DNA of 10,783 nt from a bacterium (GTDB lineage: Bacteria; CSSED10-310; JAJRTK01): positions 1 through 10,783 of the forward strand of contig JAJRTK010000027.1 in assembly GCA_024278345.1 (NCBI GenBank), in the 5' to 3' direction. The notes beneath the pieces are model-generated. The model had not been told where the DNA came from, made no database searches, and was given only the letters and a program-made list of their open reading frames with translations. Shown piece after piece: positions 1 to 10,783 of this stretch. Position numbers and translations under genes: made by a program. Within the stretch, counting starts at the first letter, position 1. Every line of letters starts with the position of its first letter.

Positions 1-114
1 TAACGCGATGCGTGACCCTTCGAGTCACGCAAACGTGACCCGCCGAGCGGAGCGCGGCGTTGTCCGAAGCCAAGTTTTTTTCCGAGCCATTGTCCCGCCT
101 TGCGTGGATACCCG
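1..114. repeat. Interspersed palindromic repeat, left copy (right-hand part of a composite element)
   Basis: This segment matches 10189-10325 at 111 of 114 positions once one extra 23-nt tandem unit in the right copy is removed. It opens with a perfect 7-bp hairpin (GCGTGAC at 10-16 pairing with GTCACGC at 24-30). A purine/GC stretch and a seven-T run follow, and it ends at GGATACCCG, where the two copies stop matching. That boundary (114 here, 10325 there) defines the right end of the element. The left end is cut by the window. No transposase or other protein gene lies in it, apart from a 21-codon minus-strand frame at 25-90 described separately. Its role is unknown; it could be a non-autonomous mobile palindromic element or a structural RNA. 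The repeat itself is certain; its nature is inference. Confidence 0.9.
25..90 (-). other. 21-codon open frame inside the repeat (copy 1)
   Basis: An ATG at 90 opens a 21-codon frame ending in TGA at 25-27. The product begins MARKKTWLR and is strongly basic. AAGG lies about 8 bases before the ATG, a weak ribosome site. The same 66 bases occur without change at 10236-10301. Perfect conservation is what a recent repeat would show anyway, so it is not proof of translation. It is listed because the frame is identical in both copies and may be annotated as a small hypothetical protein elsewhere. More likely it is simply part of the repeat. Confidence 0.2.
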
Positions 115-186
115 TATCGACCCGTGCCTTTGGCACAAGTTCCCCGCGGCGCCCGACCCTCGCCCAACATTCTCCGGGAAATCTCC

Positions 187-1230
187 ATGAAAGCCGTCGT
201 CGTTCGTGAATTCCAAGCCCGGCCTCTTCTCGAAACCGTTCCCGATCCCATGCCTTCCCCTGGCGGCGTCGTCATTCGTGTGGCCGCCACCGGCCTTTGC
301 CGGAGCGATTGGCATGGCTGGATGGGTCACGACAAAGATGTGACACTTCCCCATGTGCCGGGCCATGAGCTGGCGGGGGTGGTGGAGGAGACAGGCCGGG
401 ATGTCACGGGCTGGCGGCCCGGGGATCGCGTGACCCTGCCCTTCGTCTGTGGTTGTGGAAGCTGCCCGCAGTGTCGATCGGGCAATCAACAGGTGTGCCA
501 CCGGCAGTTCCAGCCCGGGTTCACCCGCTGGGGCTCTTTCGCCGAGCTCGTGGCGGTAGATTACGCCGACGTGAACCTGGTGCGCCTGCCGGCCGAGGTC
601 TCTGACGTAGCGGCGGCGAGTCTGGGCTGCCGCTTCGTCACATCGTTCCGGGCGGTGGTGGACCGGGGGCGCGCCAAGCCTGGGGAATGGGTTGCGGTTC
701 ATGGTTGCGGGGGTGTCGGTCTTTCGGCGGTCATGATCGCCAACGCCCTTGGCGCCAGGGTGGTTGCCATCGATATTACGGATGAGAAGCTGGCACTTGC
801 AAAGACTGTTGGAGCGGAGGTCCTCATCAATGCTTCCGGCGGCCAAAAGGTCGCTCCGGCCATCCGCCAGGCGACGGGAGGCGGAGCCCATCTCTCCCTC
901 GATGCCTTGGGAAGCCCCATCCTGTGCGGCAACTCCATCAGGTGCCTCCGAAAGCGGGGAAGGCACGTGCAGGTGGGCCTGCTGGTGGGCGAGGAAGCAA
1001 ATGCGGCGGTACCCATGGATTTGATCGTTGCCTATGAGCTCGAAATCCTGGGGAGCCACGGAATCCAGGCTCACCGGTACGACGCACTCCTTGGCATGAT
1101 CCGCGCGGGCAGGCTGCGGCCCGATCTCTTGGTGGGCCGGACCATGAGCCTGGAGGAGTCGATCGATCAGTTGGTTCGGATGAACGAGTTTCCGGAAACG
1201 GGGATCCAGGTGATCCATCCGCTCTTCTGA
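187..1230 (+). CDS. Zinc-dependent alcohol dehydrogenase (medium-chain dehydrogenase/reductase)
   Basis: This 347-residue cytoplasmic enzyme should oxidise an alcohol or reduce an aldehyde with NAD(H); the substrate is unknown. The catalytic zinc ligands are visible: Cys38 (in GLCRSD), His60-Glu61 (GHE) and Cys148. The structural zinc lobe has the standard spacing, Cys90-x2-Cys93-x2-Cys96-x7-Cys104. The nucleotide-binding loop GCGGVG is at 173-178, and Asp196 at the end of the next strand favours NAD over NADP. Length is normal for the family. The ATG at 187 gives the usual start (MKAVVV). The frame runs upstream to an ATG-like position at 100, but that would add 29 unconserved-looking residues read from sequence next to the repeat. 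The RBS is weak (GGGA about 8 bases upstream). The gene stands alone on its strand, between the repeat and a convergent transporter gene. Confidence 0.93.
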
Positions 1231-1261
1231 ATCAACCTATTGCGGTGATAAAGGCGACTAG

Positions 1262-1281
1262 CGCATGTCGGCCGACGTGCG
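1262..1281. repeat. Near-perfect 20-nt palindrome between convergent genes
   Basis: The sequence reads the same on both strands except at one pair (T opposite G), with GTCGGCCGAC as its perfect core. It lies 32 bases after the dehydrogenase stop and 110 bases beyond the stop of the convergent transporter gene. There is no T-run on either side, so it is not a classical intrinsic terminator. It could still be a transcript 3'-end structure or a protein-binding site. The rest of 1231-1391 shows nothing recognisable. Confidence 0.45.
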
Positions 1282-1391
1282 ATGGGAGCGGAACACAACC
1301 CAACAAAAGGAAAGCGCTTTGACTCGACTTCCGGGCGCGTGAGCAGGAGCCATTCCAGGGCATTTGGCTGCTTTTTCAGGCCCATGCAATG

Positions 1392-2435
1392 TCAGACGAG
1401 GCCCCGATTTCCCAACTCCTCCTTCACATATGCGTAGTAGATGGGAGCGGCGATGATGCCCGGTATGCCGAAGAGCACTTCCATCACCAGCATGGCCGTC
1501 AGCAGCTCCCAAGCCTCGGCCCGGATCTGGTTCCCGATGATCTTCGCGTTGAGGAAATACTCGAGCTTGTGGATCACGATAAGAAACAGCAGAGACCCCA
1601 TGGCCACGGACGGGGAGACGCTGAGACTCACCACCACGATGACCGTGTTCGACAGAAGATTCCCCACCACCGGCAGCAGCCCCGCCAGAAAAGTGAAAGC
1701 GATGAGCGTCTTGGTCAGGGGAAGAGTGATCCCCAACACCGGCAGAAGGATACCAAGGTAAATCGCGGTCAGCAGACCGTTCACCGCCGCGATCCAGACC
1801 TGCGCAAAGACAACCCGCCTGAAGGCATCGGCCAATTTTTTGACTCGCTGGATGAGGCAACCAGCCAGAGGCTTGTGGGAACGGCCCTCATGGATCTCCC
1901 GCAGCGAGACCATCGCTCCGATGACCATCCCCACGGCCACGTGAGTGACGAAGAGACCCACCGCCTTTCCGGTGTGCTGCAGAACCGTTGCGTGATGCTT
2001 GAGCCACTCGGCCGCAGCCTCTTTCAGGCTCTCCGCCGTGGTGGGAATCCTCTCGGCGAACCAGCCCGGCAACATGCTCTGGGAATCACTTAAAATGTCG
2101 GCCATTTTGTCCAAAAGAACCGGGAGACTGTTGTTGCCGCTCCTGAAAAAGGCAATAAGGCCAAGAACCAACAAGCTCAGGATCCCGACGATGACAATCG
2201 CCAGCACGACCACCGCGGCAATTCGCGCCCGGAAGCCGGTGATACGGCTCAAACGAACGATGGGGATAAGAACGTGGATCAGCTCATAGACAAGCAACCC
2301 AGCCAGGAGCGCCGGCAGTAAATGGCTGAGCAGAATCAGTAAAAGCGCGCCGCCGGCCAGGATCCAGGATGCCATATCGTAACGAGTAGCTGGCGGGAGC
2401 AGTTCGTCGTTTGCCACCATGGAATCTAGCTTCAT
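1392..2435 (-). CDS. AI-2E family transporter (PerM/YdiK-like membrane protein)
   Basis: This integral inner-membrane protein has 347 residues from the chosen ATG. Family members export small molecules or ions: TqsA exports autoinducer-2, and others act as Na+/H+ antiporters. The real substrate cannot be told from sequence. Hydrophobic segments lie at about 22-60 (two helices), 72-98, 155-177, 212-235, 240-272, 277-292 and 308-335, with a soluble stretch at 100-150, which is the family layout. Typical family signatures are seen: LLPVVGNL (253-260), IHKLEYFLNAKIIG (288-301) and the C-terminal FGIPGIIAAPIYYAYVKEEL. The frame extends to an ATG at 2546, but those 37 extra residues are polar and family members usually start about 20 residues before the first helix. 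No start has a good RBS, so 2546 and 2420 remain possible. It is convergent with the dehydrogenase gene and downstream of the DUF2520 gene on the same strand, 348 bases away. Confidence 0.9.
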   Translation of the reverse strand: MKLDSMVANDELLPPATRYDMASWILAGGALLLILLSHLLPALLAGLLVYELIHVLIPIVRLSRITGFRARIAAVVVLAIVIVGILSLLVLGLIAFFRSGNNSLPVLLDKMADILSDSQSMLPGWFAERIPTTAESLKEAAAEWLKHHATVLQHTGKAVGLFVTHVAVGMVIGAMVSLREIHEGRSHKPLAGCLIQRVKKLADAFRRVVFAQVWIAAVNGLLTAIYLGILLPVLGITLPLTKTLIAFTFLAGLLPVVGNLLSNTVIVVVSLSVSPSVAMGSLLFLIVIHKLEYFLNAKIIGNQIRAEAWELLTAMLVMEVLFGIPGIIAAPIYYAYVKEELGNRGLV

Positions 2436-2783
2436 CTTGATTTGGATTCGCCTGCGAAGCGAAGCCACTCCTTTGGCTCGGGAGGCGGGTTCTGAAATTC
2501 GAGTCCACCCAGAATCGCTGGAGCCGAACCAGATGTCAACCTCCATTCAGCGCCGCGAGGTGAGCCTGACCATTCTTTCCACTTACCTGCCATGACTTTG
2601 CGATCCCCTTGTCTTTTCCTTGGGTTGCGTTCCGCAACCGTCGCCTGGCGGCCGCCAAACGCCGGTTGCCTTTTCCGTCAGCGGTCCCGGGCCCTTTCCG
2701 CATTCCCAGTCTGTCCGGCGGATCAGGAGTAGCAACGGGAAGAATGGAATCCGTGGAATCACCAAAAGAACGGCAAGAACTGT
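2436..2783. other. Intergenic stretch with overlapping alternative stem-loops
   Basis: No convincing gene was found here. A minus-strand frame of 83 codons (2536-2787) has poor, repetitive composition and is not called. The notable content is a nested inverted-repeat cluster at 2623-2669. GGTTGCG (2623-2629) pairs perfectly with CGCAACC (2633-2639) around a 3-base loop. GCAACCG (2634-2640) can instead pair with CGGTTGC (2663-2669), enclosing the perfect palindrome TGGCGGCCGCCA (2646-2657). The two foldings share bases and exclude each other. Their place after the DUF2520 stop suggests a transcript-end structure or an attenuator ahead of the transporter gene, but there is no U-run on the minus strand. 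Confidence 0.5.
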
Positions 2784-3686
2784 TCACCGGCCCTCGTCAA
2801 CCGCCATTTTGCCAAACTGCCGGAGCAGCGCCTGGTAAGCCTGTTCGGGAAGTGTTTCTGTCTGCCGCCCCAGGTAGGCCGCGTGGCGTCCCAGAGCTTC
2901 ATAGACTGCCAGAACTTCCTTGTTGCCAAGCTCCCGTATGGCCTGTAGATGCGCTTCCACAACCGGTAGATCTCCCCGCTGGATGGGGCCGGTGAGCGCT
3001 GCGGCGGGACCCAGGCGCGAGATATTCTTCCAGGTCCCCGTCACCAATTCTGAAAGCACTTCCATGGCGGCTGGCTCGTCCAGGCCGCAGGCCTCAAGTA
3101 AGGAGGCCGCCACATCCATCAGGACCACCAGATAGTTGGATGCCACGACGGCCGAGGCGTGGTAAAGAACCTTCCGGTGGGACGGAATTTCCAGTAGGCG
3201 CCCGGCCAGGCGTTTTACGATTTCCCGGAGCAGAGAGCCTCCGGCGCTGTCGGGCTCCAGCGCGTAAAAGATCCCTTCCGCGAGCTCCTGGCCTTTCCGG
3301 GCCACCGCCTGCAAGGGATGGAGGCCACTCACGGGGAAACCCGCCTCCGTCAAGGGCCTCAGATTCTCTACGGAAAGGCATCCGGAGGCATGAACGAAGA
3401 GCGGCTTCCCGTGCCACCTTTCAATTTTGGCTAACTCCGCGGCGACAACCGAAAGCTGGCGATCCGGGACCGTGAGCCAAACCAGGTCCGCCTTTCTCTC
3501 CGCCAAGCCGGAAAGAGTCACCGCTTTCCCCTGTCCCACGAGGGAGCACAGGGATTCCGCGCTCTCCCTCGAGCCCGATACCACCGAGGAAAGCCACCCG
3601 ATCTCCCGCCGAAGCAGAGTCAACGCCAGAGCCGTCCCCATTCGGCCGGCACCCACTATGGCTATCGCAAGCTCCCTCTTCGCCAT
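2784..3686 (-). CDS. Rossmann-like and DUF2520 domain-containing protein
   Basis: This 300-residue cytoplasmic protein is related in architecture to ketopantoate reductase and pyrroline-5-carboxylate reductase. An N-terminal NAD(P)-binding Rossmann fold (about 1-125) is followed by an all-helical DUF2520 domain (about 130-270). The dinucleotide loop GAGRMG is at 12-17. Family-type segments include LVWLTVPD (68-75), HASG (99-102), LHPLQAV (122-128), the helix YHASAVVASNYLV (175-187) and LTGPIQRGD (231-239). The reaction and substrate of this family are not firmly known. The chosen ATG has GGGAG 5 bases upstream and puts the first strand near residue 6, as is usual. An ATG 12 bases earlier (3698) also has a purine-rich site and adds only four residues. 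The gene is divergent from the outer-membrane barrel gene. Confidence 0.9.
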   Translation of the reverse strand: MAKRELAIAIVGAGRMGTALALTLLRREIGWLSSVVSGSRESAESLCSLVGQGKAVTLSGLAERKADLVWLTVPDRQLSVVAAELAKIERWHGKPLFVHASGCLSVENLRPLTEAGFPVSGLHPLQAVARKGQELAEGIFYALEPDSAGGSLLREIVKRLAGRLLEIPSHRKVLYHASAVVASNYLVVLMDVAASLLEACGLDEPAAMEVLSELVTGTWKNISRLGPAAALTGPIQRGDLPVVEAHLQAIRELGNKEVLAVYEALGRHAAYLGRQTETLPEQAYQALLRQFGKMAVDEGR

Positions 3687-3724
3687 CACCTCTCCCATCG
3701 AAATCCCCCTTCTTCACTTACACC

Positions 3725-3731
3725 AAGGAGG
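3725..3731 (+). promoter_or_regulatory. Strong Shine-Dalgarno sequence (AAGGAGG) before a TTG codon
   Basis: AAGGAGG is the best ribosome-binding match in the intergenic region and lies 6 bases before a TTG at 3738 that is in frame with the barrel gene. It argues for a start at 3738. That start would put 60 residues before the hydrophobic core of the signal peptide, which is too long for normal export. Either the protein starts here and has an unusual leader, or the site is coincidental and the start is at 3849 or 3858. Confidence 0.45.
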
Positions 3732-3848
3732 GCCACTTTGGCGAATCGTTTGGTTTCAGGGCAGGATGAGATTTCCGGGATTGTTCTGGCGGCAGTCCAG
3801 CCAAAGACTCCGGCGGGGCGCCGCTCTCTCCTTTTTCCAGGATCGGCT

Positions 3849-5477
3849 ATGGGCGGAATGTCTAGTTTTTCTCCAGTTTTCATTGCCGTGGAGCGTTTTG
3901 GATCTTTTCTGGATCCATCGTTCTTTCGACGCTGCTTTCTTCTTTCCTTCTTTCCCTACCTTGCGGGGCCTGCCATGGCTGGCCCCTCTTCTTCCCAGGT
4001 TGTCATTGAGCAGGTCCCTCTGACGGATGCCCCGGAAGGTTCCGGTGCCCGGAAGATCGACGCCGGCGCCGGCGGAGTTCTCATCCCCGCATTGACCAAG
4101 GGGCGTGCCGAACCTCAGTGGGCACTCTACGACAACGAGGGAAAACGAATCGGCGCCGCTGTCACGGGAAGGATCCTGCCCGTCTCTCCGGGCATCTACA
4201 CCGCCAAAGTAGGCTCCGGAAGCCGGAGCCAGCAACTGGCCGTCAAGATCGAGGTCCGGCAAGGATTCATCAGTCGTGTCCAACCCAATTGGGGCGCCCT
4301 GGTCGTGCATCTGGTCAACGAAGAAGAAACCCCTTTCCGGGGGTTCTACCAGCTTTTCGAGTTCATTTCCCGCGATGCCTATGGCTTTGGCCGAGGCGCC
4401 GAGGAAGAGCTTGGCGAAACCGTGGATACGTGGCTCCTTCCGCCAGGCATCTACAAGCTGGTGGGTCCGCTGGAGACCTACGAAGCCATCCGAAACTTCG
4501 TCACCATCGAGGTCCTGCCCAATCGAGTCATCCATTACGCCATCGTAGCGGACTCCAAGAGTGGGGACTTCCTGGGATCCGGCGTCGTGCCCACTGGCGA
4601 TTTTACCGTCCGAGGCTCCATCACGGGCCGCAGGCCTAGAGTCCAGGTGGGCGGTTTCAAGATCAAGGCTCGCATCGGAGGCGACTTCAGTCAGAGTGCC
4701 TCGGACAATGTTCTGGGACTTGGCGGGAATTCCCTGGGCTTTGGCCTGTTTACCGATTTTAGCGCCAACTACCTCTGGAAAAAACACATCTTCAACCTCT
4801 TTATTGATCTCGAGGGAGGCGTCCGAAAGAATAGTGACGAGAATTTTGTCAGGAAGGTCCGGGACGAGATCAGCATCTCCAGCATATACATCCACCAAAC
4901 TTGGCCCCTGGTGGGGAGGTACGTGCGGTTCCAGGCAACGACCCAGTTCGCCAAGTCCTTCGCCCGCTACGATGATCCCACGGAGATCGTTGTCGATGGC
5001 GTTTCCCAGGGGGAACAGACGAGCCTCCAGCTCTCCGGTTCCTTCGATCCCCTCTTCCTCCAAGAGGGCATGGGCCTCAACTTCCGCCTTTTCAAGAATG
5101 TGTTTGCCGACCTCGACGCCCGCGTGGGCGGCTCTCTCCGACACACCATTTCTTCGGGGTTCCTTGTCCGCAGGGACGATTCCCAAGGAGACGTGGAACT
5201 CTTCGACAGAGTCAGAGGCTCCACCGAGATCGGAGCCGAGCTCGTGCTCCTTGGCGCCGCCAGGTTCGGGCAGATCGCCTCTTACCGAAACTACACCAAT
5301 GCCTTCGTATCGACAGAGAACAAGCTCCGTTTTCGTTCCGATCACATCGTCAGTGTCCGCCTGGTCAAATCCCTCTCCGTGGGCCTTCTTCTAGGTCTCC
5401 GGAAGGACGATACCACGGCCGACAGAATTGGTTTCACCCAGGCCCTGTTCATCCGGGCCTCCAAGCGGGTTTTTTGA
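3849..5477 (+). CDS. Exported outer-membrane beta-barrel protein with N-terminal beta-rich modules
   Basis: The product is not recognised as a named protein. From the ATG at 3849 it has 542 residues. An Arg-Arg followed by a hydrophobic run (RRCFLLSFFPYLAGPAMA) looks like a signal peptide cut just after AMA. Two similar beta-rich modules follow, each with a PPGIY/SPGIY-type turn (ILPVSPGIYTAKV, then WLLPPGIYKLV) leading into a strand pair, reminiscent of PEGA-like or Ig-like surface modules. The second half alternates polar and hydrophobic residues with aromatic girdle positions. It ends in Phe (...IRASKRVF), the usual signal for insertion by the BAM complex. So the second half is probably a barrel of roughly 12-14 strands in the outer membrane, with the modules in the periplasm. 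The start is uncertain: TTG at 3738 has a perfect RBS (579 residues), while ATG 3849 has AGGA at 6 bases and ATG 3858 none. Third-position GC is low before about 3975, favouring a late start. Confidence 0.75.
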   Translation: MGGMSSFSPVFIAVERFGSFLDPSFFRRCFLLSFFPYLAGPAMAGPSSSQVVIEQVPLTDAPEGSGARKIDAGAGGVLIPALTKGRAEPQWALYDNEGKRIGAAVTGRILPVSPGIYTAKVGSGSRSQQLAVKIEVRQGFISRVQPNWGALVVHLVNEEETPFRGFYQLFEFISRDAYGFGRGAEEELGETVDTWLLPPGIYKLVGPLETYEAIRNFVTIEVLPNRVIHYAIVADSKSGDFLGSGVVPTGDFTVRGSITGRRPRVQVGGFKIKARIGGDFSQSASDNVLGLGGNSLGFGLFTDFSANYLWKKHIFNLFIDLEGGVRKNSDENFVRKVRDEISISSIYIHQTWPLVGRYVRFQATTQFAKSFARYDDPTEIVVDGVSQGEQTSLQLSGSFDPLFLQEGMGLNFRLFKNVFADLDARVGGSLRHTISSGFLVRRDDSQGDVELFDRVRGSTEIGAELVLLGAARFGQIASYRNYTNAFVSTENKLRFRSDHIVSVRLVKSLSVGLLLGLRKDDTTADRIGFTQALFIRASKRVF

Positions 5478-5507
5478 ACTGCTCCCCCGCCACGGCAGGG
5501 ATTCCTC

Positions 5508-5575
5508 CACCCGAAACCGACTTTGCCACACCCGAGCCAAACACCCGAAACCGATCTTGCCACACCGCCCCGAAT
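5508..5575. repeat. Two tandem copies of a 34-nt repeat
   Basis: Copies at 5508-5541 and 5542-5575 share CACCCGAAACCGA, a two-base swap, then TTGCCACACC; their last nine or so bases diverge. They lie in the 121-base gap between the convergent ends of the barrel gene (+) and the small membrane-protein gene (-). On the minus strand each copy reads GGTGTGGCAA followed later by GGTTTCGGGTG. This could be a pair of protein-binding sites or a chance local duplication. No terminator hairpin with a T-run is evident in this gap. Confidence 0.6.
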
Positions 5576-5598
5576 GCCCCAAACCCACTCGGCATCCC

Positions 5599-5853
5599 TC
5601 AAAAGAGGTTTACCCAGAATTCCAGCCAATCTCTCCTGCTCTCCGGAAACAGCAAAGACGCGACCAAAACGAATCCGGCCGCCAAGAGAGCCAGCCAACT
5701 CCCGAGCCTGAAAGACCACGGCGGAAGCTTCCCAATCCTCAACGAGGTCCACCCGAACACACTGTTCGACAATCGCTCCGCTCCACCGAAAAAAAGAATC
5801 CAAACGCAGACCAAAAGGCCCAGGAGAAAAAGAACCCAAAGTTCAACTTCCAT
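5599..5853 (-). CDS. Small two-helix membrane protein, unknown function
   Basis: This 84-residue protein has two clear membrane helices: residues 5-22 (LWVLFLLGLLVCVWILFF) and about 51-69 (GSWLALLAAGFVLVASLLF). A polar, basic-leaning linker (23-50) lies between them, and a short Arg-rich amphipathic tail (ESRRDWLEFW) follows. I do not recognise a family. It is taken as real because AAGGAG lies 10 bases before the ATG, both helices have clean boundaries, and it sits 88 bases downstream of the response-regulator gene on the same strand. It is probably the third gene of the kinase-regulator unit. The RBS is partly inside a 7-bp inverted repeat (5860-5888), which could limit translation. It may be a sensor partner, a small effector of the pathway, or unrelated. 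A longer reading of the same frame reaches back into the regulator gene (from 6279), but that part is a shadow. Confidence 0.65.
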   Translation of the reverse strand: MEVELWVLFLLGLLVCVWILFFGGAERLSNSVFGWTSLRIGKLPPWSFRLGSWLALLAAGFVLVASLLFPESRRDWLEFWVNLF

Positions 5854-5859
5854 CGCCAC

Positions 5860-5888
5860 GGAACTCCTTTTCCGAAAACCAGAGTTCC
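5860..5888 (-). promoter_or_regulatory. Inverted repeat overlapping the RBS of the small membrane protein
   Basis: GGAACTC at 5860-5866 and GAGTTCC at 5882-5888 are perfect complements separated by 15 bases. On the minus-strand transcript the second arm contains the GAG of the AAGGAG ribosome site, 6-7 bases before the start codon region. The hairpin could partly hide the site from ribosomes. The inverted repeat is seen directly; its regulatory role is inference. A second short stem (GAGCG 5914-5918 with CGCTC 5927-5931) lies just after the response-regulator stop. Confidence 0.35.
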
Positions 5889-5941
5889 AGGTCCACGCCC
5901 CATCCGTTCGAACGAGCGCCACCGAACGCTCTGGTCGTCCA

Positions 5942-7384
5942 TCACAGATCCAAATCGAGGCGGGCGATCTCCTTGTAAAGCACGCTCCGGTCCAGCTTGA
6001 GGAGCCTGGAAGCCTTGGCCTTGTTCCCTTTGCAGCGACCGATGGCCTCCCTGATATAGAGTCGCTTGAGCCGCTCGATGGCTGGCCGAAGGGCCAGGTC
6101 TCCCAGCACTTCCTCGCTGTAGGGCTCCAACGACTGTTCGATCTTGATATCATCGCAGTCCAGTATTCCACCGCCAGCCAGAATGACCGCGCTTTCCAAA
6201 ACGTTTTCCAGTTCCCGAACATTGCCAGGCCAGTGGTGGGTGTGCAGCTTAGCCATCGCCTGCTTGGTGAGCCCTTCACAAAGGATGCCGTGCCGTTCGT
6301 GGAGCTTCTTCAGGAAGACATCCACCAAAACGTCGATGTCTTCGGGACGTTTCCGAAGTGGCGGCAGCGTCACCTGAATGACATTGATCCTCTGATAGAG
6401 ATCTTCCCGAAACCGACCGTCCCGCACCAGCTTCTTGAGCTCCCGGTTGGTGGCACCCACGATTCGGACATCGACGCGGATTCCCTCGTGCCCGCCCACG
6501 GGAACCACTTCGCGCTCCTGAACCACCCGGAGCAACTTCGCCTGGCAAGCAAGGCTCATTTCTCCCAGCTCGTCCAGAAAGAGCGTGCCGCCGTCGGACT
6601 CCCTGAACAGCCCCTTCCGATCGACACTGGCGCCCGTGAAGGCACCGCGCTTATTCCCAAATAGCTCTGACTCGATAATCTCGGCCGGGATGGCCCCACA
6701 ATTGATGGCCACGAAAGGCTGGTTTGACCGGTTGCTATTGTAGTGGAGCGCCTTGGCCGCCAGCTCTTTGCCCACGCCACTCTCTCCGCACAAGAGGACT
6801 GTCACATTGTAGGGCGCCACCTTCTTCAGCGTCGCGAAGATCTCCCGCATCTCCAGACTTTTCGTTAAAAGCCCCTCGAACTGGTAAAGCCCGGTCACCT
6901 GCTGCCGAAGCTCGTCCCGCTCCCGGGCCACCCGCTGGCTTTCCTGGACAAGCTCCGCGTTCCGCGCTTCCAGCTCCTCTGTCAGCCGCCGGTTTTCCTG
7001 GCGCAAACGGTAGGTGTCCACCGCCTGGGCAACGATCATCCGAAGGTCCGCCGGGTTCCAGGGCTTGGCGATGTACCTGGAAATGTGCCCCCGGTTCACC
7101 GCATCCACAAGGTCATCGATGTCCGAATAGGCCGTGAGCAAGATCCGCTCCGCATCCGGCTGATGCAGAAGTGCCACCTCAAGGAGCTCCACACCGGTCT
7201 TATCAGGCATCCGCTGGTCCGTGAGCACAACGGAAAAAGCCCGTTCCTGGAGGTAATTTTCCGCCTCCTTCGGATCGCTTACCGCCACCAGAGGAAACTC
7301 CCGCTTCAGGCAGAGCTCCACCGTCCGGAGACTGCCGATATCATCGTCCACCAACAGCAAAGGATCGATTTGCGGAAGGGCCAT
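5942..7384 (-). CDS. Sigma-54-dependent response regulator (NtrC/AtoC type)
   Basis: This 480-residue cytoplasmic transcription activator has three domains. The receiver (about 7-120) has the acidic cluster Asp13-15, phospho-acceptor Asp56 (LTDQRMP), Thr84 and Lys107. A helical, charged linker (125-165) is probably a coiled coil for dimerisation. The AAA+ sigma-54-interaction domain (about 172-400) has Walker A GESGVGKE at 200-207, GAFTGA at 247-252 (needed to contact sigma-54), Walker B GGTLFLDE at 265-272, the arginine-finger region GRFREDLY (323-330) and WPGNVREL (385-392). A Fis-type helix-turn-helix lies at about 437-475 (GNKAKASRLLKLDRSVLYKEI). All catalytic motifs are intact. GGGAG 6 bases before the ATG supports the start. 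It follows the histidine kinase gene by 113 bases on the same strand and is very likely its partner. No clear sigma-54 promoter was found in the window, so its targets are unknown. Confidence 0.96.
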   Translation of the reverse strand: MALPQIDPLLLVDDDIGSLRTVELCLKREFPLVAVSDPKEAENYLQERAFSVVLTDQRMPDKTGVELLEVALLHQPDAERILLTAYSDIDDLVDAVNRGHISRYIAKPWNPADLRMIVAQAVDTYRLRQENRRLTEELEARNAELVQESQRVARERDELRQQVTGLYQFEGLLTKSLEMREIFATLKKVAPYNVTVLLCGESGVGKELAAKALHYNSNRSNQPFVAINCGAIPAEIIESELFGNKRGAFTGASVDRKGLFRESDGGTLFLDELGEMSLACQAKLLRVVQEREVVPVGGHEGIRVDVRIVGATNRELKKLVRDGRFREDLYQRINVIQVTLPPLRKRPEDIDVLVDVFLKKLHERHGILCEGLTKQAMAKLHTHHWPGNVRELENVLESAVILAGGGILDCDDIKIEQSLEPYSEEVLGDLALRPAIERLKRLYIREAIGRCKGNKAKASRLLKLDRSVLYKEIARLDLDL

Positions 7385-7497
7385 CTTCGGCTCCCTATAA
7401 AAAAGTTGTTTTTTTCTGCTCCAAAGGATCAGTTTTTTTGCAAAACGCCCATTTTTCCCTAGAGTTGACAGCCGCTCCCTCAGTCGCGGCCGCTCCC
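7385..7497. other. Gap between kinase and regulator genes, with a hairpin flanked by T-runs
   Basis: At 7416-7432 CTGCTCC and GGATCAG form a 7-bp stem with one mismatch and an AAA loop. Seven T's (7409-7415) precede it and seven T's (7433-7439) follow it, read on the plus strand. This has the shape of an intrinsic terminator for plus-strand transcripts, although no plus-strand gene feeds into it. On the minus strand, the one that matters for the operon, it is followed by A's and should not terminate. A 10-base direct repeat (GCCGCTCCCT) occurs at 7471-7480 and 7489-7498, the second copy touching the kinase stop codon. Confidence 0.4.
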
Positions 7498-9153
7498 TTA
7501 CTCCGACCCGGTGGGAGGCTGCTCCCGCAGGGAATCGGGCAAAACAATCCGAAAGCAGCTTCCCTCTCCCGGTGCCGAGTCCACCTCGATCCGACCACCG
7601 TGCTCCTTGGCCGTCTGGTAGGCCAACGACAGCCCCAGCCCAGAGCCTTCCCCCACCTTCTTCGTGGTGAAAAAGGGATCGAAGATGCGATGGAGAATCT
7701 CCGCCTCGATGCCGCTTCCCTCGTCCTCAATAAAATAATGGAACTCTCCCGGGACCATGCGGGAACCCGCTCGGATGACTCCTCCCCGGAAAGACGCGTG
7801 AACCGCGTTGACGAACAGGTTGAGAAAAACCTGGTTCATCCGTTCGGGATAACACCAAACGGGCGGAAGCCGACCCAACTGAAGTTCAAACCGCTGGTCC
7901 CGCCCCACTCCCTTGCTCACCAGCCGAACCACCGTCTCCAAGGCCTCATCCAGATGCACAAGCTTGAGCTTTGCCTCGTCCAGACGGGCGAAACTCTTGA
8001 GATCCCGAACCGTCCGCTCCGACATGGCCGCGCCGTCAAGACAGAGACGGCTTGCGCAGGCAAGATCCTGGACCAGCTCCAGGACCTCCTCCCGCCGGGC
8101 CGCCATTTCCGGGGCCCTGCCCCCCACAATCCCGGCCAGCGCCGCCGAGAACTCGTGTATCATTTTCACGTTGGCCGAGACCTGCAAGAGAGCGTTTCCC
8201 AGTTCGTGAGCCACTCCCGCCGCCAACAGCCCCGTGGCGGCCATCTTTTCCGATTCCAGGAGCTGCCGGTGCTTGAGCTCCAGCTCCCGGGTCCGCTCCT
8301 CCACCTTCATCTCCAAGAGGGCCGACTGGCTTTGGAGATCCCGTTGATTGCGGGCACTTTCAATAGCCAGCGCGATGATGCTCCCGATGCTCTCCAGAAG
8401 TTCCAGCGGAACCGCGCTCACGATGCTCCGCACGCTGTCTCCATAGAGCACTCCCAGCTTCTCCACCGCGCCACCCCAACGAGGGGCCAGAAGCGGAATG
8501 CAAACAGCTCCGCTCACCCCCAGCGCCACCACGGACCGAGCCGAACGAAGCAGATCGTCTTCGATGGCGTTGAACACGATGCGGGACTGCCCCTCCGCCA
8601 CCACCTGAGAAGCTAAGGTCTCCGTAAACTCGAATTCCGCCGGGGACAGGTCTTCCAGATGCCCATCCCTAGACCGCTGACGGCCCAGTTGGCACGACAA
8701 TCGGCCATCCTCCAGCAAAAGAAGGGCACCCCGGTCGGCGCGGGTGAGTCCCACGAACTGGTCCAACGCCACTCGAAGGACCTCATCAAGATCCGGCGCC
8801 AACAAAAGCGATTGGCACAGCTTCAAGAGAAGTGCGGTTTCGGCTCCGGACCCGGTGCGCTCTCGCTGTCCGGCCAGATCGACAATGAACTCCAGGTTCC
8901 CGATGGAGACGCGATCGCCAACCCCGATGTCAGTGCTCCCATCAACGGCGATGCCGTTGATCCGCGTCCCATTCTTCGAGCCCAAATCCGCGATGAGATA
9001 GCCGCGGCGCGTCCGCTCGATAATGGCGTGTAGCTTTGAGATGGAAGGATCGTGGAGTTCGATGTCGCAACCTCGAAGTCGACCGATCTCGGCCCGTTCC
9101 TGGACGAGCCATGTGATGGAAGGATCGGCAACAGATCGTAGGATGATATCCAC
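7498..9153 (-). CDS. FHA-GAF sensor histidine kinase
   Basis: This 551-residue kinase has no membrane segment, so it probably acts in the cytoplasm. An N-terminal FHA domain (about 1-95) carries the phosphothreonine-binding pattern: Gly24-Arg25, Ser37...His42, and SKNGT at 59-63. A GAF-type sensory domain (about 105-265) follows, then a coiled-coil linker (265-305). The dimerisation/phospho-acceptor helix has His316 in GVAHELGNAL. The ATPase domain (about 400-541) has the N box (NQVFLNLFVNA, 440-450), G1 DEGSG (477-481), F box FDPFFTTK (491-498) and G2 GEGSGLGLS (501-509). The start is GTG, with GGAGG 7 bases upstream. The FHA domain suggests the kinase is also tuned by Ser/Thr phosphorylation, or docks to a phosphorylated partner, linking two signalling systems. 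The adjacent sigma-54 response regulator is the expected phosphate acceptor. Confidence 0.95.
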   Translation of the reverse strand: MDIILRSVADPSITWLVQERAEIGRLRGCDIELHDPSISKLHAIIERTRRGYLIADLGSKNGTRINGIAVDGSTDIGVGDRVSIGNLEFIVDLAGQRERTGSGAETALLLKLCQSLLLAPDLDEVLRVALDQFVGLTRADRGALLLLEDGRLSCQLGRQRSRDGHLEDLSPAEFEFTETLASQVVAEGQSRIVFNAIEDDLLRSARSVVALGVSGAVCIPLLAPRWGGAVEKLGVLYGDSVRSIVSAVPLELLESIGSIIALAIESARNQRDLQSQSALLEMKVEERTRELELKHRQLLESEKMAATGLLAAGVAHELGNALLQVSANVKMIHEFSAALAGIVGGRAPEMAARREEVLELVQDLACASRLCLDGAAMSERTVRDLKSFARLDEAKLKLVHLDEALETVVRLVSKGVGRDQRFELQLGRLPPVWCYPERMNQVFLNLFVNAVHASFRGGVIRAGSRMVPGEFHYFIEDEGSGIEAEILHRIFDPFFTTKKVGEGSGLGLSLAYQTAKEHGGRIEVDSAPGEGSCFRIVLPDSLREQPPTGSE

Positions 9154-9541
9154 AGGTTAACCTCCACTGTCGCTTCTTGCTCCATTCCATTGTAGCGACA
9201 TGCGACTTGTGGCGCAACCTTACCGTGAAAGCACACGCAAAGCAGACCTCTGTCTTCTGGGCGTCCCGCCAACGCCTTGCTGCATAACAAATTAATTCTA
9301 TTACCTTTTTACACCCAATGTGCGGACTGCACAGTTGCCCTGAAGGCATCCGACCACCGACAATTCCACGATCCTTGAAATGTCCCGCCTTACGCGGGGT
9401 CACTCTTGCCCGCCAGCGAAATCGAGGATCAGCGCCGGGCGGTGGTGCAGTTCTGGTCCGCGCTTTTGCTCGGGGTCCTGCTCCCTGGAATTTTTCGTTC
9501 GGCGGGCGTCGATCTCACGGCTCCGGCCTGCCGTCGGAGAT
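9154..9541. other. Intergenic region between the divergent kinase gene and TonB-receptor remnant
   Basis: No gene is supported in this 388-base stretch; long frames through it on both strands have no start context or recognisable product. It contains an AT-rich island (about 9280-9315) in otherwise GC-rich DNA, where promoters for the kinase gene (-) and the receptor remnant (+) would be expected. The remainder (9316-9541) shows nothing that I can identify. Confidence 0.5.
9277..9304 (+). promoter_or_regulatory. Possible sigma-70-type promoter in the AT-rich island
   Basis: TTGCTG (9277-9282) and TATTAC (9299-9304) are separated by 16 bases, each matching 4 of 6 consensus positions. It would read toward the TonB-receptor remnant. 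The same AT-rich stretch could serve the kinase gene on the other strand. The match is weak and rests mainly on the local drop in GC content. Confidence 0.25.
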
Positions 9542-10058
9542 ATGTCACCAGCCTGGTGGTTCGCCTCCTCGCCAAGCTTCCCCACGGGAAGGGTTTGGCG
9601 GTTTCTCCATGTCGCGCTTCTGGCGTCGAGCCACTCCCTTGCAGCGCCGGAGTCACCGTCGGTTTCCCCGGTGGCGAAGCGCGGTCTCGGCGGTCTGGCC
9701 GGTCAAGTCCTGGAAAAGCGCAGCCAGCTCCCTCTCCCAGGAGTGACGGTCGTCGTCCACGAAGCGGTCGTTCAAGGGGTGACAAACGAGAAAGGCAGAT
9801 TCCGGCTCCAGAGTTTGGCTCCTGGAAGCTACTCCGTGGAATTCCGGTTGTGGGGGTACGTGCCGCTGGTGAAGACGTCGGTGATCGTTCGAGCGGAACC
9901 GCGTTTTCCGAGACCTCCCTTTCCCTGTCGAACGCATCGTTCGACGAGGAGGACTTTGAGACCTCCACTGGAGGAAAACCACTCCGGCCTCGGTCATGGT
10001 ACCGGCCACGGTTCAGATTTCAGACGCCGCCCCGGGGCTTCCAGCCCTGGAACCCGGC
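9542..10058 (+). pseudogene. TonB-dependent receptor, N-terminal fragment (frameshifted)
   Basis: From ATG 9542 the frame has a signal-peptide-like start (RVWRFLHVALLASSHSLAAP). It is followed by a carboxypeptidase-regulatory-like domain at 9686-9901: GLAGQVLEKR..LPGVTVVVHE..QGVTNEKGRFRLQSLAPGSYSVEF..GY. Such domains precede the plug of many outer-membrane receptors. After about 9901 this frame turns into Arg/Pro-rich nonsense. The frame one base on reads LPFPVERIVRRGGL, a stop at 9957, then TTPASVMVPATVQISDA, which resembles the region leading into a TonB plug. So there appear to be a frameshift near 9900-9915 and a stop. The coding signal ends at the hairpin cluster starting at 10059. The first frame formally stays open to 10249. 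The ATG has only a poorly spaced GGAG. It most likely no longer makes a receptor. Confidence 0.65.
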
Positions 10059-10188
10059 GGAGGCTCCGCCTCCGGACCTTCGCTGGGAGCGCCGCTCCCA
10101 GACCCACGCCAGGGAGCCAGCTCCCTGGTGGGTGCGGGTCGAAGCCCTGCCAGGGGACCGGGGACGGAGTCCCCGGACCACCTTCGGG
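10059..10188. repeat. Cluster of four perfect or near-perfect GC hairpins
   Basis: In order: GGAGGC-TCC-GCCTCC (10059-10073), an 8-bp stem CTGGGAGC/GCTCCCAG with a GCC loop (10083-10101), a 9-bp stem CCAGGGAGC/GCTCCCTGG (10109-10128), and an 8-bp stem CCGGGGAC/GTCCCCGG with a GGA loop (10158-10176). A weaker fold around CGAAG lies at 10134-10150. Bases 10109-10157 recur at 10735-10783 with 45 of 49 matches. The cluster leads directly into the repeat at 10189, so it is probably the left part of one composite element. The stems have different sequences but a common design: 6-9 GC-rich pairs and a 2-3 base loop. Confidence 0.85.
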
Positions 10189-10325
10189 TAACGCGCGGCG
10201 TGACCCTTCGAGTCACGCAAACGTGACCCTTCGAGTCACGCAAACGTGACCCGCCGAGCGGAGCGCGGCGTTGTCCGAAGCCAAGTTTTTTTCCGAGCCA
10301 TTGTCCAGCCTTGCGTGGATACCCG
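10189..10325. repeat. Interspersed palindromic repeat, right copy, with a duplicated 23-nt unit
   Basis: This copy matches 1-114 but carries two tandem 23-nt units (10199-10221, 10222-10244) where the left copy has one. Each unit is itself a hairpin, CGTGAC-(ccttcga)-GTCACG plus a CAAA spacer. Apart from the extra unit there are only three differences. The unit-number change shows that the array expands or shrinks by slippage or recombination. The right end (GGATACCCG) abuts TonB-receptor barrel sequence. A seven-T run lies at 10286-10292. Confidence 0.92.
10236..10301 (-). other. 21-codon open frame inside the repeat (copy 2)
   Basis: It is identical over all 66 bases to the frame at 25-90. 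ATG at 10301, AAGG about 9 bases upstream, TGA at 10236-10238; the product is highly basic and begins MARKKTWLR. Upstream of the ATG the two copies differ at one base. The frame also extends 5' with no stop as far as 10724. Translation is not shown. Confidence 0.2.
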
Positions 10326-10690
10326 GAATATCAAACGGCCTCGGCCTTCAACGGCCCGAAAGCGAGCGGGTTCGGCAGTCTCGCCCTCTCTTTCTCCCAT
10401 CGGTTCACGGCCACGGTGGGACTGAGGGCGGACTGGTTTTCGGCGACGGGGAACGCGCATTTGTCGCCAAGACTGGCGCTCACGTACCATGCGAGCGAGA
10501 GATTTTCGATCTACGGAGCCACGGGATGGTTCCAGCAGAGCCTGCCGCTGGGTCTCCTGGCCCAGTCTCCGGATCACCGCCGGCTGCGGGATCCTCAAGC
10601 GTTCCACGCCGTGCTCGGGATTCAGCGGCTCCTTGCGCCCGGACCGCGGCTGACGCTGGAAGGCCCCAGTGGGTATCAACGTAAGCCGGG
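10326..10690 (+). pseudogene. TonB-dependent receptor, internal beta-barrel fragment
   Basis: The frame beginning EYQTASAFNGPKASGFGS encodes about 120 residues of typical receptor barrel. A strand reads ALSFSHRFTATVGLRADWF, then ATGNAHLSPRLALTYHASERFSIYGATGWFQQS, then LGIQRLLAPGPRLTLEG. The LSPRLALTY...YGATGWFQQ pattern is characteristic of mid-barrel strands in TonB receptors. There is no start codon of its own. The piece begins exactly where the repeat ends and fades near 10680, shortly before another repeat copy. Plug domain and terminal strands are missing from the window. The frame stays open through the right edge, reading into the next repeat. It is the same frame as the plug-like segment at 9960-10058, consistent with one original gene split by the element. 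It could also be a second receptor's fragment. Confidence 0.65.
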
Positions 10691-10734
10691 ACACGCGCCC
10701 CAAAAAAAGACGCGCAGCGTACAAAAACGTGGGT

Positions 10735-10783
10735 CCAGGGAGCGCGCTCCCTGGTGGGTGCAGGGCGAAGCCCTGCCAGGGGA
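10735..10783. repeat. Third copy of the palindromic element, cut by the window end
   Basis: Matches 10109-10157 at 45 of 49 bases. Here the first palindrome is perfect (CCAGGGAGCG/CGCTCCCTGG, 10735-10754). The second is a clean 7-bp stem GCAGGGC-GAA-GCCCTGC (10760-10776), which is degraded in the other copy. It is therefore probably nearer to the ancestral sequence. It is expected to continue into a 10189-10325-like part beyond the window. Confidence 0.85.

Follow-up and report, generated by a model that had tools for sequence, protein, structure and literature searches.

A hybrid MITE copy between TonB-receptor-type gene fragments and a probable DUF6399 parent for two palindrome-rich MITE families

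Repeat copies on the contig

The window analyzed here (positions 1-10783) is a complete contig (C409) of a 6.06-Mb draft genome, which is distributed over 550 contigs and is 87.9% complete. It carries three copies of a palindromic repeat, the middle one lying between fragments of a TonB-receptor-type gene (Table 1). An earlier note on this DNA had proposed that the three copies share one orientation, and this was confirmed, with similarity far above chance at 91% (1-47 versus 10189-10235), 92% (10109-10157 versus 10735-10783) and 99% identity (Table 1). The two outer copies, described there as cut by the window edges, are indeed incomplete; yet, as the window is the entire contig, both edges are contig ends, that is, assembly breaks. 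Folding is strong, the DNA fold of 10020-10330 reaching -91.7 kcal/mol (z -7.6), and a search of the genome with 10059-10325 returned at least 54 matches (best 40 of 621 first-look candidates scored).

The boundaries of the copies had to be redrawn. The middle copy starts at 9986 and not at 10059, and its end, placed by the earlier note at GGATACCCG, lies at 10324 (...GGATACCC). At 10671 the third copy opens with a left TIR of its own, a boundary that it does not share with the middle copy.

The middle copy is a hybrid of two MITE families, F1 and F2. It measures 339 bp, starting with an F2 TIR and ending with an F1 TIR, so that its left boundary is unlike that of the other two copies. The position of the change was read from the surroundings of a 20-bp palindrome in fetched contigs totalling 924 kb, or about 15% of the genome. 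In this sample the F2 context (CACG to the left, ACCCACA to the right) occurs 19 times, the F1 context (GGGT to the left, TGGGTGC to the right) 12 times, and the combination found in the window once. Having CACG on its left and TGGGTGC on its right, the palindrome at 10109-10128 marks the change from F2 to F1.

Two further features of the window were recorded. The stretch at 9360-9403 (CAATTCCACGATCCTTGAAATGTCCCGCCTTACGCGGGGTCAC) looks like the decayed right end of an F1-type element standing alone, its TIR falling within the 5-mismatch limit. Just downstream of a DUF3078-domain gene, at 5508-5566, the sequence CACCCGAAACCGAyyTTGCCACACC occurs twice, 34 bp apart.

Table 1. Coordinates of the repeat copies, their parts and the adjoining gene fragments in the window.
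Feature	Position	Strand	Evidence or remark
F1 MITE right part (23-nt hairpin repeat, GC hairpin, T-run tail)	1..113	.	cut by contig end; 99% identity, 11-114 versus 10222-10325
F1 right TIR TGTCCCGCCTTGCGTGGATACCC	91..113	-	TIR match
N-terminal fragment, TonB-receptor-type gene (left flank)	9650..9985	+	CarboxypepD_reg, E 1.6e-12
Hybrid MITE, F2 left end and F1 right end	9986..10324	+	flanks ACCACTCC / GGAATATC, 2/8 match, no TSD
F2 left TIR GGCCTCGGTCATGGTACCGGCCACG	9986..10010	+	TIR match
F2-derived palindrome modules (GGAGGCTCCGCCTCC, CTGGGAGCGCCGCTCCCAG, others)	10011..10108	.	match F2 consensus built from repeated k-mers; present in F2 copy of L062
20-bp palindrome CCAGGGAGCCAGCTCCCTGG, common to F1 and F2	10109..10128	.	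F2-to-F1 switch, by flanking context
F1-derived right part: GCGGGTCGAAGCCCTGC and CCGGGGACGGAGTCCCCGG hairpins, 23-nt array, tail	10129..10324	.	96% identity to L002, query positions 51-266
23-nt hairpin unit CGTGACCCTTCGAGTCACGCAAA, two tandem copies	10199..10244	.	direct repeat
F1 right TIR TGTCCAGCCTTGCGTGGATACCC	10302..10324	-	TIR match
Beta-barrel fragment, TonB-dependent receptor (right flank)	10326..10670	+	TonB_dep_Rec_b-barrel, E 3.8e-7, profile positions 171-236 of 436
F1 element left part (third copy)	10671..10783	+	cut by contig end
F1 left TIR variant GGGTATCAACGTAAGCCGGGACA	10671..10693	+	identical 23-mer in Leptolyngbyaceae L151 and L153

MITE families and their palindromes

The F1 TIR is 23 bp long (GGGTATCCACGCAAGGCGGGACA) and occurs, with up to two mismatches, at 413 sites genome-wide (207 forward, 206 reverse), against none for the reversed control. 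The anatomy of the family was derived from complete copies at other places in the genome (L002, L004, L012, L014, L030, L033, L044) and consists of a left TIR, a short and often A-rich stretch, GC palindromes, 23-nt hairpin units numbering from zero to several, a tail with a frequent T-run, and the inverted TIR. The number of hairpin units differs between copies, the longest run seen (L017) being cut by a contig end, and elements are found in either orientation within contigs. The earlier description was of a single non-autonomous mobile element whose left side holds GC hairpins, followed by a 23-nt hairpin array and then a tail containing a T-run, and it is borne out by the joint presence of these parts in many copies; in L002, L004, L012 and L014 the left hairpins and the T-run tail are continuous within one element. 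The size given there (220-270 bp) is too narrow, most F1 pairs in the 924 kb spanning 168-358 bp.

Among 21 F1 TIR pairs from the same 924 kb, the identity of the flanks rises clearly only at a length of 8, indicating an 8-bp TSD. Ten of the 21 pairs match at 7 or more of the 8 positions (for instance TATCTACG, GGATATCC and CCAGTCGG), compared with 2.9% for shuffled flanks. A good TSD is missing in about half of the pairs, as it may be in old or rearranged copies.

F2 has a TIR of about 25 bp (GGCCTCGGTCATGGTACCGGCCACC) with 268 sites genome-wide (135 forward, 133 reverse; control 0). Its copies are mostly around 200 bp long and bear 8-bp TSDs, perfect examples being AAAAACCG, GTTGAGTT and CAAACTCA. 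One of them resides inside an ISL3-type transposase gene (L062, L092, bases about 334-536), with GTTCAAGC on either side. A third MITE family, F3, is 154 bp long and has the TIR GGGACCTATCA(A/G)AT and 8-bp TSDs (L080, L071, L110, L122, L140, L141, L147).

Both F1 and F2 are short, highly repeated elements with paired TIRs, a constant 8-bp TSD and no transposase gene. The 23-bp TIRs, 8-bp TSDs and copy number identify F1 as a MITE; the earlier note had recognised no named family, and a probable parental IS family (with a DUF6399 transposase) can now be given. Relatives of the element were sought in 98 genomes, a single 2-mismatch match in one other genome being treated as chance, and by DNA in plasmids, where none were found.

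Palindromes are common to F1 and F2, notably CCAGGGAGCnnGCTCCCTGG. Summed over seven recurrent stems, 122 of the 129 occurrences are no more than 400 bp away from a TIR of F1 or F2; these palindromes were not present in the cyanobacterial MITEs seen. The hairpin stems are nearly constant between copies and the loops variable. Two-sided stem changes (GAC/GTC to GAT/ATC; CTGGGAG to CCAGGAG) are few, and insufficient to argue selection.

The repeats also bear on the assembly itself. In a sample of contig ends, 56 of 106 have such repeats within 400 bp, versus 12 of 300 interior windows, and this enrichment helps explain the fragmentation of the genome into 550 pieces. A separate observation concerns L078, where a long stretch at about 11026-12262 contains internal direct repeats, with shifted copies 72-78% identical to each other, and is possibly a repetitive protein gene.

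DUF6399 elements and remnants

When named genomes were scanned for the F1 TIR, the degenerate 23-mer was matched exactly in Leptolyngbyaceae and related cyanobacteria. One of these, L152, carries a decayed element of 1331 bp whose gene is broken; relatives of this element on plasmids are annotated as DUF6399 (Pfam PF19936). F1-like TIRs bound DUF6399 genes in cyanobacteria, on a Crinalium plasmid and on a viral contig, and in many cases the 8-bp TSDs are perfect. The TIR match is 22/22 both on the plasmid (L156, TSD CGTTTTCT) and on the viral contig (L172, TSD TTCATTTT). TIRs together with 8-bp TSDs were found for the DUF6399 elements of L156, L172, L175, L177, L181, L182, L187, L188 and L196 and for the copies in G126; in some others the TSD is absent. 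The G126 genome holds about a dozen complete copies of a 1756-bp DUF6399 element, about 99.8% identical or more and located at different sites on several contigs, which indicates recent movement. Their flanks, inspected by eye, show perfect 8-bp TSDs in nearly all cases, one being ambiguous by a G.

The complete element of the viral contig occupies positions 2910-4603 of L172. Its open frame has no ATG near the start and is preceded by the A-rich ATTAAAAAAACAAAATAA, so that a frameshift start is possible.

A divergent DUF6399 gene is enclosed by F2-type ends (GGCCTCTATCATCGTTTCGGCCACA, close to F2) at 93-2006 of L171, which constitutes the one complete F2-type autonomous element, with no clear TSD. 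The TIRs of both families are also those of autonomous elements, F1 sharing them with DUF6399 elements elsewhere and remnants in this genome and F2 with L171.

The PF19936 profile matched five places in the genome under study. In C188 (E 4.8e-46) an F1-type TIR (TGTCCCGCCTTAAGTGAATACCC) follows within about a dozen bases after the stop, and further DUF6399 remnants occur in C387, C507, C80, C390 and C36. The C-terminal remnant of C390 is situated at one end of an 832-bp stretch between two F1-type TIRs, and the N-terminal remnant of C36 adjoins an F1-type TIR and continues into sequence of F2. With L171 the C387 remnant shares 40% identity, and given the F2-type ends of L171 the two MITE families are probably derived from separate branches of the DUF6399 transposase family, F2 being represented by one element. 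These remnants were recovered by searching with the PF19936 model and with the Crinalium protein in full length; the L152 transposase fragment gave no match in this genome. No intact DUF6399 gene was found in the draft (550 contigs, 87.9% complete), and lone TIRs and long repeats revealed no autonomous copy in the 924 kb.

The location of DUF6399 genes inside TIR/TSD-bounded elements suggests that DUF6399 (PF19936) is very probably the DDE transposase of the parent mobile elements. Residues D147, D202 and E452 (L172 numbering) are invariant in 19 DUF6399 proteins, a pattern that fits a DDE transposase. The AlphaFold model of L172 (mean pLDDT 43) was of insufficient quality to establish a DDE fold and was set aside, and a PDB profile search yielded no transposase. 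Similarity to IS21 transposases is weak and sub-threshold (22.5 bits for L198 against a model cut-off of 160), and no NCBIfam model scored above its curated cut-off for L172, L171 or L198. The open literature searched contained no mention of DUF6399; judged by Pfam, NCBIfam and open papers, the transposase family is apparently undescribed.

The ISL3, ISAs1 and IS1595 families generate target duplications of about 8 bp, and remnants of all three (PF01610, PF01609 and PF12762, respectively) exist in this genome. They were rejected as parents, having no F1-type TIR at their ends and apparent ends of their own that differ by eye.

Origin of the copies and comparison with known systems

We consider it very likely that the sequences at 1-113 and 10671-10783 belong to F1 MITEs moved in trans by DUF6399 and that 9986-10324 arose by recombination between F2 and F1. 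A DUF6399-type transposase would bind the TIRs, move the short elements to new sites and duplicate 8 bp there, both its catalysis and its action in trans on F1 and F2 being inferred. Autonomous copies would then decay, or may be missing from the draft. Palindromes would come into the MITEs by some route and, as short identical stretches, would let elements of different families recombine into hybrids. The copy at 9986-10324 is best read as the outcome of a recombination deletion, in which an F2 and an F1 MITE would have inserted in one TonB-receptor-type gene and recombined at the 20-bp palindrome, with loss of the middle.

Alternatively, the copy with F2 left and F1 right ends could be a mobile hybrid inserted as one unit, as might be suggested by a second F2-F1 end pair (L118 161-438) and by L029, which apparently has an F2-type left end. 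We regard this as unlikely, since flanks are unmatched in both measured F2-F1 pairs (2/8 in the window, 0/8 in L118) whereas those of F1-F1 and F2-F2 pairs often match, and since the interior of L118 differs, so that it looks like an independent event. Moreover, the receptor domains on both sides of the window copy, in fragments that are weakly defined (barrel E 3.8e-7), are apparently not contiguous.

Less likely still is that the host retains the sequence as a functional cis element, whether a transcription terminator, a structured RNA or a regulatory array of hairpins. Strong folding and nearly constant stems with variable loops would agree with such a role, but Rfam and terminator scans produced no Rfam match above threshold and no terminator-like site, copies lie inside broken receptor and transposase genes, and transposition accounts for their presence. 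A REP/BIME-type origin, with palindromes as the mobile units of a REP-associated tyrosine transposase and incidental TIRs, is highly improbable despite the high copy number, short GC palindromes and module swapping between copies, given that 122 of 129 palindromes accompany F1 or F2 TIRs and so are not independent mobile units, and that the unit has TIRs with 8-bp TSDs, a product not known for REPs.

Among known systems, the BrickBuilt MITE of Porphyromonas gingivalis (only 19 copies in ATCC 33277, with IS5-type TIRs about 12 nt long and target duplications of irregular length; PMC4596501) likewise has a leader and a tail flanking a tandem array of a 23-nt unit, and TIRs similar to those of resident IS elements. 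It differs from the present case, where TIR sites number in the hundreds, TIRs are 23 bp and TSDs 8 bp long, two families share hairpin modules and the parent is probably a DUF6399 element. Bacterial MITEs, such as Chunjie of Geobacter and others covered by a review (PMC10969869), are also short, repeated, devoid of transposase, bounded by TIRs and TSDs and inserted in genes. Unlike in typical examples, the interior here is made of exchangeable GC palindromes, two families appear to recombine via a common palindrome, and neither Pfam nor NCBIfam identifies the putative parent family as one of transposases. REP/BIME sequences (PMC2817692) share the many short GC-rich palindromes in mosaic order, whereas the palindromes described here seldom occur outside TIR-bounded units that carry 8-bp TSDs.

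On balance, we lean towards the broader proposal that DUF6399 represents an undescribed IS family with two TIR types (GGGTA... and GGCCT...), both of which would have seeded large MITE families in this genome that share exchangeable palindromes, now serving as recombination points where host genes are deleted and rejoined. The window would then provide a concrete case in which MITEs of two families, unlike in their ends, recombine via shared palindromes and remove host DNA. A family of "unknown function", DUF6399, would gain a function, and an unexplained repeat would become the product of a known process.
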